Shown here: one piece after another, positions 15,888-22,193 of the stretch
How the letters are laid out: every line of letters begins with the position of its first letter
How positions within the stretch are numbered: position 1 is the stretch's first letter
NCBI RefSeq assembly: GCF_025558585.1
Contig: NZ_CP094723.1
Coordinates: 992,001-1,056,000, forward strand
From: Staphylococcus sp. IVB6214
GTDB lineage: Bacteria; Bacillota; Bacilli; Staphylococcales; Staphylococcaceae
Length of the DNA: 64,000 nt
Direction of reading: 5' to 3'
Translations under genes and position numbers: made by a program
Notes under the pieces: model-generated
What the model saw: only the letters and a program-made list of their open reading frames with translations
Told to the model about the DNA's origin: nothing
The model's database searches: none

Positions 15888-16279
15888 TGAAATCTAAAAT
15901 TCAAATGCTATACGCTTTCATTCAGGTGTGAAATATTATTTGTATACACAAAAACGCCACCGTCTCAGTAAGATGATGTTCCATTATTATCAAAAGCAAT
16001 GTTACAACCAGCTAAGCTATACTTTAAAAAGAGAAGGAGAGAGAAGCCTTAATAATAAACACGAAATAGTATAGGTGCTACATGTCTCGATTTTTATTTG
16101 TTATTATAAAATCCACCTTCTAACCATTTTTAAATTGATTATAAGATTTTATCCGTAACGGTATTGATTGTTTTAATCTATTAATACTACATATTTATAG
16201 TAATGTAGATAAATTTCTATGAATTTACTATAAATTAAAGCTGAATTAATAAAAAAGGTGCGTTATAATGATGCTAGAG
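15888..16279. other. Gene-free stretch between glnR and the CRISPR array, with toxin-remnant-like end and array leader
   Basis: No ORF with an SD. GCCACCGTCTCAG at 15956-15968 resembles the antisense end of staphylococcal type I toxin loci (compare 20334-20360); minus-strand sequence above it is toxin-like only in fragments. The last 60-80 nt before the first repeat are AT-rich, fit a CRISPR leader and hold a promoter-like pair (CTGAAT 16241-16246, TATAAT 16264-16269). Confidence 0.4.
16241..16269 (+). promoter_or_regulatory. Putative pre-crRNA promoter in the leader
   Basis: -35-like CTGAAT (16241-16246), 17-nt spacer, perfect -10 TATAAT (16264-16269). Start of transcription would be about 16276, only a few bases before the first repeat. 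Confidence 0.5.
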
Positions 16280-16447
16280 GTTTTAGTACTCTGTAATTTT
16301 AGGTATAAGTGAAACAGACTACTTCGCAGAGTCATTAAAAATGGCGTTTTAGTACTCTGTAATTTTAGGTATAAGTGAAACATGAAATCTACGAAATAGT
16401 TCATAAACCCAGTTTTAGTACTCTGTAATTTTAGGTATGAGTGTAAT
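16280..16447 (+). CRISPR. Type II CRISPR array, 3 repeats and 2 spacers
   Basis: Repeats of 36 bp at 16280-16315, 16346-16381 (identical) and 16412-16447 (last 8 bases diverged: typical terminal repeat), separated by 30-bp spacers at 16316-16345 and 16382-16411. The repeat begins GTTTTAGTACTCTGTAATTT, as in the S. aureus type II-A (SaCas9) repeat. Degeneracy at the right end places the leader on the left and transcription on the plus strand. It lies upstream of, and co-oriented with, tracrRNA and cas9. Confidence 0.97.
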
Positions 16448-16576
16448 GATTTTTATTCATGTGTATTGAAGCTAAGTTGTTTAATGCTTAATTTTATGTA
16501 TGGAACTATTTACCATCATTAAAAATATATTCAGAATTATTAAAGAAAACATTGACGATTTGTTAATGAGTTGGTA

Positions 16577-16612
16577 AGGTATAAGTATAGGCGACGGCCT
16601 ATACTTATACCT
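16577..16612 (+). repeat. Perfect 16-bp inverted repeat ahead of and into the tracrRNA anti-repeat
   Basis: AGGTATAAGTATAGGC (16577-16592) and GCCTATACTTATACCT (16597-16612) with a 4-nt loop. The right arm is the 5' end of the anti-repeat; the left arm contains AGGTATAAGT, the same 10 bases as the 3' half of the CRISPR repeat. Confidence 0.95.
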
Positions 16613-16688
16613 AAAAATTACAGAACCTACTAAAACAAGACTATATGTCGTGTTTATCCCATCTATTTTTTAGATGGGATTTTTTTCT
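16597..16688 (+). ncRNA. tracrRNA of the SaCas9-type system
   Basis: The anti-repeat (about 16600-16636) is complementary to the array repeat: TTACAGAACCTACTAAAAC against GTTTTAGTACTCTGTAA, with the usual internal bulge. It is followed by a short hairpin region (CAAGACTATATGTCGTG) and a terminator hairpin ATCCCATCTA/TAGATGGGAT with a T7 run (ends about 16687). Order and sequence match the S. aureus tracrRNA closely. A longer form starting upstream and including the inverted repeat is possible. Confidence 0.9.
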
Positions 16689-16738
16689 TTCTAGAATATA
16701 GAGTTAACAATCTATTTCAGGGCAGGAAAATATTATAT

Positions 16739-16766
16739 TTGAAAACGCATTCAACTCATTTATAAT
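16739..16766 (+). promoter_or_regulatory. cas9 promoter with CcpA cre-consensus match
   Basis: -35 TTGAAA (16739-16744), 16-nt spacer, -10 TATAAT (16761-16766). TTGAAAACGCATTCAA at 16739-16754 fits the cre consensus WTGNNARCGNWWWCAW at every position and covers the -35 and spacer. Confidence 0.6.
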
Positions 16767-16797
16767 AAAGTTGTATATTGAATTAGGAGGTTATATG

Positions 16798-19700
16798 ATG
16801 TCACAACCATACATATTAGGTCTTGATATTGGGATTGGCTCAGTAGGCTATGGATTAATCGATTTTGAGACTCAAAAAATTATAGACGCAGGTGTACGTT
16901 TATTTCCTGAAGCAAATGCAGATAACAACTTAGGGCGTCGAGCAAAACGTGGTGCTAGGCGTTTGAAGAGAAGACGTATACATCGTTTAGAGCGTATTAA
17001 AGATTTATTGTCAGAATATAAAATCATTTCAGAAGAACAACCAGTTAATAATAAGCCATATGATATAAGAGTCAAAGGTTTAACTGAAGCATTATCTAAA
17101 GATGAACTTGCAGTAGCTTTATTACATATTGCTAAACGTCGTGGAATTCATAATATTAATATTGCAATGAGTGATGATGATTCGTCTTCAGATAGTTTAT
17201 CAACTAAAGATCAGCTTAATAAAAATGCCAAAGTACTTGAAAATCGATATGTATGTGAGCTTCAAAAAGAGCGTTTAGATACTGAAGGAAAAGTTCGTGG
17301 TGTGGAAAATAGATTTCATACTAAGGATATTATTCGCGAAGTCAAAAAACTTTTAGATACGCAAAAACAATTTCATTCAGAGATTGATGATGATTTTATA
17401 AATAAATATATAACACTAGTAGAAACGCGTCGTGAATATTTCGAAGGGCCAGGAAAAGGAAGTCCATATGGTTGGGATGCTGATGTAAAAAAAATGGTAT
17501 CAACTTATGATGGGACGTTGTACCTATTTTCCAGAAGAATTGCGAAGTGTTAAATATGCATATACAGCTGACTTATATAATGCGCTTAATGACCTGAATA
17601 ATTTAATGATTTCAAGAGATGAAAATAACAAACTAGAGTATTTTGAAAAGTATCATATTATTGAAAATGTATTTAAACAAAAGAAAAATCCATCATTAAA
17701 ACAAATTGCCAAAGAAATTGGTGTAGATGAAATTGATATTTCTGGATATCGTATTACTAAGTCAGGAAAACCGCAGTTTACAAGCTTTAAATTATTTCAT
17801 GACTTAAAAAATGTTGTAAAGGATCAGTCAATTTTAGAAGATATTTCTTTAATGGATCAAATAGCTGAGATTCTAACGATCTATCAAGATAAAGATTCTA
17901 TTATTGAAGAACTCGGACAACTGGATCACTTACTAAGTGAAAGTGATAAGCATGCAATTGCTGAGTTTACTGGTTATACAGGTACGCATCGTTTATCACT
18001 TAAATGTATGAATATGATTATTGAGGAATTATGGCATTCTCCAATGAACCAAATGGAAATTTTTACATACTTAAATATACGTCCTAAAAAGTTTGAACTA
18101 GAAGGTTTGAAACGCATTCCAACTGATATGATTGAAGATGCGATATTATCACCAGTTGTTAAAAGATCTTTTAAACAAGCAATTGGTGTCGTTAACGCGG
18201 TTATTAAAAAGTATGGTTTACCAAAAGATATTGTTATCGAATTAGCAAGAGAGTCTAACTCAGCTGAACAACGCAAATATTTAAACGACATTCAAAAGAA
18301 GAATGAAAAAACAAGAAAACGAATTGAAGCAATTATTAAAGAATATGGGAATGAAAATGCAAAAAGGCTTGTTCAAAAAATTAGGTTACATGACGCACAA
18401 GAAGGAAAGTGTTTATATTCATTAAAAGCCATTCCTCTTGAGGATTTATTACGTAATCCTAAAAATTATGAAGTAGACCATATCATTCCAAGATCAGTGT
18501 CATTTGATGACTCAATGCATAATAAAGTGTTGGTGCGCAGTGATCAAAACGCAAAAAAGAATAATCGTACACCATATCAATATTTAACATCATCCGATGC
18601 AGATATCAGATATGCAGAATTTAAGCAACATGTGTTAAACCTTGCAAAGAATAAAGATAGGATGAGTAAGAAAAAACGAGAATATCTACTGGAAGAAAGA
18701 AATATCAATAAATACGATATTTAAAAAGAGTTTGTCAATAGAAATCTTGTAGATACACGTTACACGACAAGAGAACTGACAACGTTGTTAAAAGCTTATT
18801 TCAGTATTAATAATCTTGATGTGAAGGTGAAGACCATCAATGGTAGCTTTACTGACTTTTTACGTAAAAGATGGCGCTTTAAGAAAAATCGAAATGAAGG
18901 ATATAAACATCATGCAGAAGATGCCCTTATCATCGCAAAAGCAGATTTCCTTTTTAAAGAACATAAATTATTAAAAGAACTTAAAGATGTATCGGAATTG
19001 GCTGTTGCAGAAAACACTTCAGAGGTGAAAAGTGAAGATCAGTATGAAGAAGTATTTGGTGGATACAATCAAATAGAAGATATAAAAAGTTATAATATCA
19101 CTAAATTTTCACATCGTGTAGATAAAAAACCAAATCGTCAATTAATAAATGACACTATATATTCAACAAGAACAAAGAATGATGAAACATATGTGATTAA
19201 TACATTGAAAAATCTATATGATAAGTCTAATGACAAAGTGAAAAAACTTTATAATAAGAATCCAGAAAACTTTTTAATGTATCATCACGATCTACAAACT
19301 TTTAAAAAACTAGCTACTATTATGGATCAATATAGTAATGAGAAAAATCCACTCGCAAAATATTATGAAGAAACAGGGCACTATTTAACAAAATATGCTA
19401 AAAAAGACAATGGTCCAGCTGTTCACAAGTTGAAATATTACGGCGATAGATTGGGTGAGCATTTAGATATAACTAAAAATTATAATTCAACTAAAAATAA
19501 AGTGGTTCAGCTTTCAAAAAGTTCTTTTAGATTTGATATCTATAAGGGCGAAAAGGGCTTTAAAATGATTAGTATTCCATATATTGATTTGGAAAATAAA
19601 AAAAATTATTATGTAATTGACCAAACATATTATAATCATCTGAAAAAAGAAAAGAAAATTTTTGAAAATGATATTTTTATTGGGAGTTTCTATACAAATG

Positions 19701-19957
19701 ATATTATTGCAATTAATGGAGATAGATATAGAGTTATTGGTGTGAATAATAATAAAACTAACCGGATTGAAGTTGATAAAATTCATATTAGACAAACAGA
19801 TTATGTTAAGAGTAACAATGTAAAAGAATCTGGACGTTTATTACTAACTATTGGTAAAAAAGTAACTAGCATTGAAAAATACCACACTGATATTTTAGGA
19901 AATATGTACAAGCAACAAAGACCAAAAACACCACAGCTTGTATTTAAAAAAGGATAA
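16798..19957 (+). pseudogene. cas9: cas9 (SaCas9-like, type II-A), broken by one frameshift and one nonsense codon
   Basis: RNA-guided endonuclease gene equivalent to about 1,052 codons, the same as SaCas9 (1,053 aa). Start ATG 16798 (or 16795) follows SD AGGAGG at 16785-16790. Seen in order: RuvC-I ILGLDIG with its Asp, the Arg-rich bridge helix GRRAKRGARRLKRRR, REC lobe, RuvC-II IVIELARE, HNH EVDHIIPRSVSFDD with its His, RuvC-III HHAEDALIIA, and the PAM-interacting C-terminus ending HTDILGN...KKG. Lesion 1: the A8 run at 17487-17494 has one A too many, shifting the frame after GWDADVKK. Lesion 2: TAA at 18722-18724 stands where SaCas9 has Gln (CAA to TAA), between HNH and RuvC-III. Apart from these the protein is collinear and conserved, so decay is recent. 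Confidence 0.95.
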
Positions 19958-20545: not shown

Positions 20546-22114
20546 TTATCTGGCTAGTTTTCTGATATTTACTGCCATAAGTGCGATTCCTAATTCGCAT
20601 TCAACCTTTGATTGAGTGCGAACTGATAACCTTTGGAAACCCAAATTAGCCTTCAGATTTCCAAATGCTGATTCGACATCTATTTTTCGTTTTTTGTAGA
20701 TGCCTTTCGTTTTTGGATCTGAAAGCTGCTTATTTGTGAATGCTTTAAAATAATCCCAAGTTGGATTTTTATATAAGCTTTTTGTTGTAGTTGGATTGGT
20801 TCTGTACTTCATACATTCATTTCGTAAAGGACACCCAACACAATCTTCACATTTATATAATTTGAAATCTCTCTGATAACCATATCCGTCTCTTCTTTTT
20901 CTATAACTTTTGAAATGCAATTCTTTGTTATTCGGACATACATAATAGTCATCTATTTCATTATATTTCCAATTAGCTGTTATGAACGGATTATTTTTAT
21001 ATTTTCTTTTCTTCTCTTTTAAATACATACTATATGTGATGAGTGGTGTTTTCTCGAATTCATCAAGAATCATCGTATAGTTTTGTTCGCTACCATATCC
21101 CGCATCAGCTACAATGTACTCTGGAATGTCACCGTATAATTCTTTGATTGATTTTAAAAAAGAAGGAAGTGTTCGCGTATCACCCGGATTACTATACACA
21201 CCAAATGCCAAAATGAACTGATTGTTCGTCGCAATCTGCAGATTATAGCCAGGCTTTAATTGTCCATTCTTCATATGATCATCTTTCATTCTCATAAAAG
21301 TCGCATCATGATCTGTTTTAGAATAGCTTTTTCTGTCACCATAAATTTCCATCTGCTCATCATATTTTATTTTACGATCTTTAAAATCTTTGATTGCTTT
21401 TTTATATTTTCTAACTTTACTTCTTTGTTTTCTTAATGTCTTTCTCGTTTCTACACTTTGGGATGCTTCAATTTTAGAAGTGAGCGTTTCATTTTTATCA
21501 TCTAAATGCATCTCAATACGATTTAATTCTTCTTTTGTTAGTTCATCAGAAGATTCTCTCTTAATTTCAGGAATGATCTTCTCTGAAATTAATTGTTTAT
21601 ACACCGCATTGGATTTTTCAATAACCCCTTTACTAAAATGCTTAGTGCTACCTAGCCATTGAAAAGTATATTTATTGGCATTAGCCTCTATCTTCGTTCC
21701 GTCTATATAAAGGACGTCTTCTGTAATCACTTTATCTTCTAATAATTGTGCTCTAAGACCCACAAATAGAACTTGTATAAAATCCATCATGTGTGGATTA
21801 ACTCTAAAGCGATTGATTGTACGATATGAAGGGACTTGTCCTTGAGCTAACCACATCATACGACAACTATCTTTAAGTAGAAATTCCATTTTTCTACCAG
21901 AAAAGACAGACTGTGTATAGCTGTATAAAACGATTTTTAACATCATTTTAGGATGATAAGATGAAGGACCTCTATGGTTGTAATATTGATTAAAAGTTTC
22001 TTGGGGAATAGATTCTACAAGTTTATTAATAATGAGGGCAATATCACTCTCGGGAAAAGAAATTTCAGTTTCAATTGGCAGACTAAGCTGAGAAATGTTA
22101 TACTCTTTATACAT
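20546..22114 (-). CDS. IS1182 family transposase
   Basis: DDE transposase, 522 aa from ATG 22114 (SD AAAGGAA; an in-frame GTG at 22123 is too close to the SD). N-terminal DUF772-type domain (RGPSSYHPKMMLKI, GRKMEFLLKDSCRMMWL, PSYRTINRFR), Lys/Glu-rich helical insert about residues 165-250, then catalytic core with LYIDGTKIEANANKYTF and YIVADAGYGSE, and a C-terminal Cys cluster (CEDCVGCPLRNEC). No frameshift or stop, so it may be active. Confidence 0.93.
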   Translation of the reverse strand: MYKEYNISQLSLPIETEISFPESDIALIINKLVESIPQETFNQYYNHRGPSSYHPKMMLKIVLYSYTQSVFSGRKMEFLLKDSCRMMWLAQGQVPSYRTINRFRVNPHMMDFIQVLFVGLRAQLLEDKVITEDVLYIDGTKIEANANKYTFQWLGSTKHFSKGVIEKSNAVYKQLISEKIIPEIKRESSDELTKEELNRIEMHLDDKNETLTSKIEASQSVETRKTLRKQRSKVRKYKKAIKDFKDRKIKYDEQMEIYGDRKSYSKTDHDATFMRMKDDHMKNGQLKPGYNLQIATNNQFILAFGVYSNPGDTRTLPSFLKSIKELYGDIPEYIVADAGYGSEQNYTMILDEFEKTPLITYSMYLKEKKRKYKNNPFITANWKYNEIDDYYVCPNNKELHFKSYRKRRDGYGYQRDFKLYKCEDCVGCPLRNECMKYRTNPTTTKSLYKNPTWDYFKAFTNKQLSDPKTKGIYKKRKIDVESAFGNLKANLGFQRLSVRTQSKVECELGIALMAVNIRKLAR

Positions 22115-22193
22115 ATAAGGCACTTCCTTTCATTGTTTTTGTGGTTATTAACAATTATACGGGAAGTGTTTTATTTTTTTAAATGATATCTAT

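Follow-up and report, generated by a model that had tools for sequence, protein, structure and literature searches.

A covarying hairpin next to the tracrRNA anti-repeat in staphylococcal SaCas9-type loci as a probable 5' end of the tracrRNA

We asked what may be the role of a perfect inverted repeat that runs into the tracrRNA anti-repeat of a staphylococcal CRISPR-Cas9 locus. The locus lies in the window, i.e. the whole stretch of 64,000 nucleotides that was analysed, in a genome of 2.19 Mb (G000). The two arms, AGGTATAAGTATAGGC (16577-16592) and GCCTATACTTATACCT (16597-16612), are complementary at 16 of 16 positions around a 4-nt loop (16593-16596), as described in the original prediction, which was also right that the 5' arm copies part of the CRISPR repeat and can pair with the tracrRNA anti-repeat. 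Stems anchored there reached 15 bp at best, the script ending one base before the 16th pair, against a mean of about 4 bp in shuffled sequences (p 0.0005, Watson-Crick pairs); with this value and its conservation in relatives, the stem is beyond chance. Perfect inverted repeats of at least 14 bp with loops of 3-11 nt occur at 7 places in the window. The original prediction saw here a natural single guide, in which a longer transcript would use AATGAG(TTG) to bring Cas9 to the cas9 promoter (Pcas) and repress cas9. The comparisons presented here point, with a probability of roughly two in three, to the inverted repeat being the 5'-terminal hairpin of a SaCas9-type tracrRNA.

All features of the locus are on the + strand. 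The tracrRNA of the window is matched by the covariance model R1 (G000:C1:1008606-1008684, E 2.2e-12) and has the parts of a SaCas9-type tracrRNA: an anti-repeat (16603-16636) complementary to the CRISPR repeat of the locus, followed by a nexus hairpin and an intrinsic terminator (16637-16688, terminator stem 16656-16680). The CRISPR array (16280-16447) consists of three 36-nt repeats, the last one degenerate, and two 30-nt spacers, neither of which matches the phage collection. No copy of the tracrRNA was found in viral contigs (exact pattern) or plasmids. As the scan lists no terminator-like site between array and tracrRNA (16448-16551), read-through from one into the other is possible; an array upstream of the tracrRNA and on its strand is present in 12 of 25 tracrRNA loci. 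Seven weak Rfam matches over the region, among them PyrR, VqmR, tsr26 and three miRNA families, all fell below the gathering scores and were taken as chance matches of a strong stem with a terminator. By reading, two more small arrays of the same repeat family are present elsewhere in G000, with two spacers (L002, about 1510-1675) and one spacer (L003, about 1450-1540), and the leader of the L002 array resembles that of the array in the window.

Downstream, a predicted cas9 promoter (16739-16766; TTGAAA, 16 nt, TATAAT) agrees with the consensus at 11 of 12 positions, in a region where scan matches do not exceed those in shuffles. The cas9 remnant (16771-19957) is interrupted, leaving three open frames (16771-17553, 17507-18724 and 18785-19957). 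The type II-A system of G000 is incomplete, and since cas9 is in three frames and the genome has no Cas1 match, the CRISPR system of the window looks like a remnant in this genome. The missing Cas1 alone says little, because the Cas1 search in six genomes gave a match in three, and G002 and G071, which have full-length cas9 frames, are without a match just as G000 is. A 525-aa frame that reads as transposase-like (20546-22123) follows the cas9 remnant, where more cas genes would be expected. With cas9 broken in the window, any function must be read from relatives.

Using the first 251 residues of the cas9 frame as query, a match was obtained in 25 of 84 same-genus genomes, G000 included, and the tracrRNA was found by covariance model in the same 25. 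This model spans the anti-repeat to the terminator without the 5' part and was built from 15 of the 25 tracrRNAs, whose own matches are therefore built in. The wider order (157 genomes, the same-genus ones included) contained 28 tracrRNAs, of which three lie outside the genus (G513, G254 and G452); the families of G452 (1 genome) and G254 (33 genomes) gave no further members. The cas9 of the window and its relatives is, we assume, SaCas9-like. Among relatives whose cas9 frame is complete, G074 (frame of 1061 aa) stands nearest, at 93% over 240 residues, and a Cas9 scan of named genomes returned one relative, S. americanisciuri. The Cas1 match of G074 (L068) has one in-frame TAG. Identical G075 and G076 were counted once in the statistics, leaving 24 distinct loci of the 25.

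A hairpin of at least 5 contiguous pairs abutting the anti-repeat is present, in one common register, in 24 of the 25 same-genus loci, with G041 as the exception. The original prediction had left the conservation of the stem to be checked in relatives; it is kept at the same place, and most of these relatives have full-length cas9 frames. The letters of the arms differ between loci. In the window the arms of this core are TATAGGC (16586-16592) and GCCTATA (16597-16603), and they are the same in G074; they read TACAGGT and ACCTGTA in G055 and G044, TGCAAT and ATTGCA in G075 and G076, TATAGCACA and TGTGCTGTA in G064 (with one G-T pair), AACAAGTT and AACTTGTA in G073, G051 and G080 (with a mismatch at p1), and TACAATAC and GTATTGTA in G031 and G065. 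The pair p6 occurs as T-A, G-C, C-G and A-T. On the Cas9 tree, which has weak support on its deep branches and leaves out G069 (short cas9 match, frame of 135 aa), changes between Watson-Crick states number at least 1, 1, 2, 4, 2 and 2 at p2, p3, p5, p6, p7 and p8, i.e. at least 12 over p2-p8, some of which may be loop-length differences.

Summed over the 24 distinct loci, which are related and so are not independent cases, the stem contains 196 Watson-Crick pairs against 96.8 expected (sd 5.2, maximum 118 in 2000 dinucleotide shuffles). Taken singly and with G-T pairs counted, 11 of the 24 were below p 0.05 and 13 were no better than shuffles. Of the 66 cells at p5-p7, 65 are paired when each locus keeps its own arms; with swapped arms the average is 60% (maximum 81%), and 0 of 5000 swaps reach the observed value; the register (arms limited to 5-9) was chosen on own arms, which favours them. 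When halves were recombined and the register re-optimised, own arms scored 6.11 against 4.17 (sd 0.31, maximum 5.21 of 1000). In the same way, 10 S. pyogenes-type tracrRNAs were treated as a negative control and gave 33 pairs against 34.0 expected, none of the 10 having such a 5' hairpin; an eleventh locus without a recognisable core was not counted. Folded alone, the core is weak in G058, G007 and G024 (-1.8 kcal/mol) and stays open in G069 and G041.

Outside the genus, a perfect stem of 15 bp (p 0.0005) is present in the locus of G452 (L073), which belongs to another family. That stem, at about 1470-1508 on the reverse complement, has the GACG loop of the window and compensatory changes in its outer arm. 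The locus of G513 (L072) has 14 pairs with G-T included but misses significance when only Watson-Crick pairs count (p 0.08), and the tracrRNA of G254 (L056) has no hairpin. Overall, the hairpin is found in 26 of the 28 tracrRNAs, G041 and L056 being those that fail. Judged by comparative sequence analysis, the core (16586-16603) is a hairpin conserved with compensatory changes and abutting the anti-repeat.

The position of this core with respect to the promoter was then considered. The promoter parse ignores the hairpin and penalises odd spacers, and because it always returns a best pair, the fact that all loci have one carries no weight of its own. All 25 loci received spacers of 16-18 nt, and 22 of them TTGAC; in the window the predicted elements are a -35 TTGACG (16552-16557) and a weak -10 TAAGGT (16575-16580). 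In 17 of 25 loci (16 of the 24 distinct ones), exactly 5 nt lie between the chosen -10 and the hairpin core, which is the distance usual for a start. This gap is 7 nt in G058 and 10-12 nt in G073, G051, G023, G043 and G080, and the -10 picked in G031 and G041 is at odds with where the hairpin begins. Between the -35 and the hairpin, the six nearest loci (G000, G074, G055, G044, G002 and G071) are invariant at a T of the spacer, at the extended -10 TG (16572-16573 in the window) with the TA, and at a T and TAA behind. Considering that the core sits 5 nt behind the chosen -10 in 17 of 25 loci, transcription of the tracrRNA in the window is predicted to start at about 16587 (16586-16588). A strict promoter scan does not list this promoter, which has 8 of 12 consensus matches, and returned 3 matches compared to 4.3 in shuffles. 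The window has CAGAATT at 16532-16538, 13 nt upstream of the tracr -35, and its GAATT is common to G000, G074, G055, G044 and G002 in the clade alignment.

A palindrome over the -10 and the start site could also be a DNA operator, bound by a repressor of the tracr promoter, and it does cover the predicted start. The arm letters, however, vary between species while the pairing stays, which is unlike the operator of one conserved protein and makes this reading very unlikely.

The predicted start bears as well on the guide proposed originally. AATGAGTTG (16565-16573) and its partner CAACTCATT (16752-16760, at the end of the spacer of the cas9 promoter) were located where the prediction had placed them, and on the minus strand of that promoter AATGAG is followed by TTGAAT as described. 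A 9-nt match thus exists, and the upper part of the repeat is mimicked by the stem, both of which would suit a natural single guide. However, with a start at about 16587, AATGAGTTG would lie inside the tracr promoter, in its -35/-10 spacer, and therefore outside the RNA. The match itself is at chance level: the longest Pcas match was at least 9 nt in 60 of 100 dinucleotide shuffles of G000, it is reduced to 6 nt once the proposed PAM is honoured, and the 9-mer had two or more copies within the window in 37 of 100 shuffles. Nor is it kept in the closest intact relative: at the guide position G074 reads AATAAGTTG, for which its Pcas offers no partner, and another Pcas match of this genome, 10 nt long, is likewise no better than chance (47 of 100 shuffles). 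Apart from the TG, AATGAGTTG shows no conservation beyond this sister. In the longest-match test on 18 loci, only G080 was below 0.05 (12 nt, 4 of 100 shuffles), around the TATAAT of both promoters. Allowing one mismatch, no lower-stem mimic GTTTTAGTA was found within 180 nt upstream in G000, and the cas9 of the window is broken.

The natural single-guide RNA known from Streptococcus pyogenes is tracr-L, as described in PMC8616872 and PMC11417352. We searched for its signature, in which a stretch shared with the 200 nt upstream of cas9 immediately precedes a segment resembling GTTTTAGT with up to two mismatches. Positive controls were the seven loci that include the cas9 start among 11 found in 398 genomes of the class. 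Three of the seven (L061, L062 and L067) were positive, with 11, 11 and 13 nt followed by AGG, CGG and AGG, L067 having a second 11-nt row besides its 13-nt one. None of the 25 same-genus loci was positive; the adjacent match was at most 8 nt in 24 of 25, and the longest in G000 was 6 nt. A 13-nt hit in G080 was set aside, as it pairs the inside of the CRISPR repeat with the anti-repeat and is not a promoter match. Since the same test recovers three of seven controls, it can detect tracr-L and does not do so here. The S. pyogenes tracr-L was reportedly described by Workman et al. in 2021. Like tracr-L, the element of the window has, upstream of the anti-repeat, a segment that can pair with it inside one RNA, placed where the short-form promoter would be. 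Unlike it, the window element mimics the upper stem only, with neither lower stem nor guide found, whereas the three controls carry a GTTTTA lower-stem mimic directly after a Pcas stretch of 11-13 nt that adjoins an NGG. As no guide against the cas9 promoter was found, the idea of self-repression is not supported, and a natural single guide repressing cas9 appears extremely improbable. By sequence signature, the data suggest that the streptococcal long-form autoregulation is not shared by these 25 loci.

Folding was used to compare the possible starts. From 16587 the anti-repeat is open, the crRNA repeat binds with a gain of -25.6 kcal/mol, and the 5' hairpin stays beside the helix. When the start is moved to 16577 or 16540, the upper anti-repeat is taken up by the long stem, and the gain falls to -11.8 and -7.9 kcal/mol, respectively. 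Because helix and hairpin are both kept from 16587, the core is taken as a putative 5' cap that would not compete with the crRNA. The primary tracrRNA would then begin with a hairpin of 6-7 bp that may cap its 5' end and leave the anti-repeat single-stranded; once the crRNA is bound, the hairpin would sit beside the repeat:anti-repeat helix, and RNase III processing would then remove it.

This reading accounts for the core and leaves the outer part of the stem to be explained. Beyond the core, the stem of the window continues upstream by another 9 pairs that overlap the -10; their 5' arm AGGTATAAG (16577-16585) is a copy of repeat letters and lies upstream of the predicted start. These outer 9 bp would be absent from a transcript starting at about 16587, so that such a start does not explain them, which counts against the 5'-terminal hairpin. 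They may have been selected for transcripts from further upstream, or be the by-product of a palindrome-perfecting mutation.

If selected, the outer pairs could make the tracrRNA block itself depending on its start: transcripts from upstream of 16577 would fold the 16-bp stem and hide the upper anti-repeat, and only short ones would be active. An extension of at least 7 pairs is indeed present in 6 of the 24 distinct loci (G000, G074, G055, G044, G024 and G031) against 0.07 for shuffled 8-mers (maximum 2 in 5000), and one of at least 4 pairs in 11 of 24 against 1.3 (maximum 6 in 5000). The outer arm also follows the anti-repeat, with GTATAAG facing CTTATAC in G000 and G074, and GTATAAA facing TTTATAC in G055 and G044; in L073, AGTATAAG faces CTTATACT, which is compensatory with respect to the genus loci. 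Additionally, 10 nt more at the 5' end lower the predicted crRNA-binding gain by 12.8, 12.8, 12.7 and 10.0 kcal/mol in G000, G074, G055 and G044. Among the 11 loci tested, those with a repeat in the retrieved stretch (the other 14 have none there), the remaining 7 nevertheless change by only -3.3 to 4.3 kcal/mol, and in 13 of the 24 distinct loci the extension stays below 4 pairs. When extensions were swapped between loci, the observed count was reached in 684 of 5000 swaps at 7 pairs or more and in 70 of 5000 at 4 or more; because swaps keep most of the pairing, the extension is mostly one shared motif facing a near-constant anti-repeat. The strict scan of 16200-16830 lists no promoter upstream of 16577, and the same scan misses the predicted tracr promoter. 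Finally, no link with a same-strand array directly upstream was visible by eye in the 12 of 25 loci that have one, where the extension ranges from 0 to 8 pairs (for G055 only 172 bases upstream were covered). On balance, start-dependent self-blocking is unlikely.

Template switching in an inverted repeat with a short loop, known as quasi-palindrome correction, makes a palindrome perfect, and the outer stem could be such a mutational by-product with no function of its own. Its patchy presence, the state of having at least 4 extension pairs changing at least five times on the tree, is consistent with this origin, as is its location outside the predicted transcript. On the other hand, six distinct loci with at least 7 pairs and a 15-bp stem in another family would need repeated events, and we regard this origin, too, as unlikely. 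The outer arm is compatible both with selection acting on a longer RNA and with mutation that perfects a palindrome.

The 5'-terminal hairpin was finally compared with known RNAs. Like a SaCas9-type staphylococcal tracrRNA, the RNA of the window has anti-repeat, nexus hairpin and terminator, and it lies just upstream of cas9. Unlike the SaCas9-type tracrRNA as used, it has the 5' hairpin as an added element, the form in use starting within the 3' arm, without the 5' arm. In Firmicutes, 5'-terminal stem-loops protect RNAs from 5' decay; like these, the hairpin stands, as predicted, at the very 5' end, with variable letters and kept pairing. It differs from them in being fused to the anti-repeat, so that it could stack on the crRNA duplex, and protection is putative here. 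Among the literature matches listed, no description of a covarying 5' hairpin on a staphylococcal tracrRNA was found, which is no proof that none is in print.

A start-site switch of the tracrRNA, with RNAs started at the base of the hairpin open to the crRNA and upstream-start or read-through RNAs locked by the repeat mimic over the anti-repeat, is quite doubtful; if true, the choice of promoter, or the clearing of transcripts that read in from the adjoining CRISPR array, would decide how active the tracrRNA is. As for the 5'-terminal hairpin, its being kept across the genus and in two of the three genomes outside it points to a step of tracrRNA stability or of crRNA maturation. SaCas9 is a widely used editing enzyme, and the step that the hairpin would indicate is one that engineered guides discard and that becomes testable.
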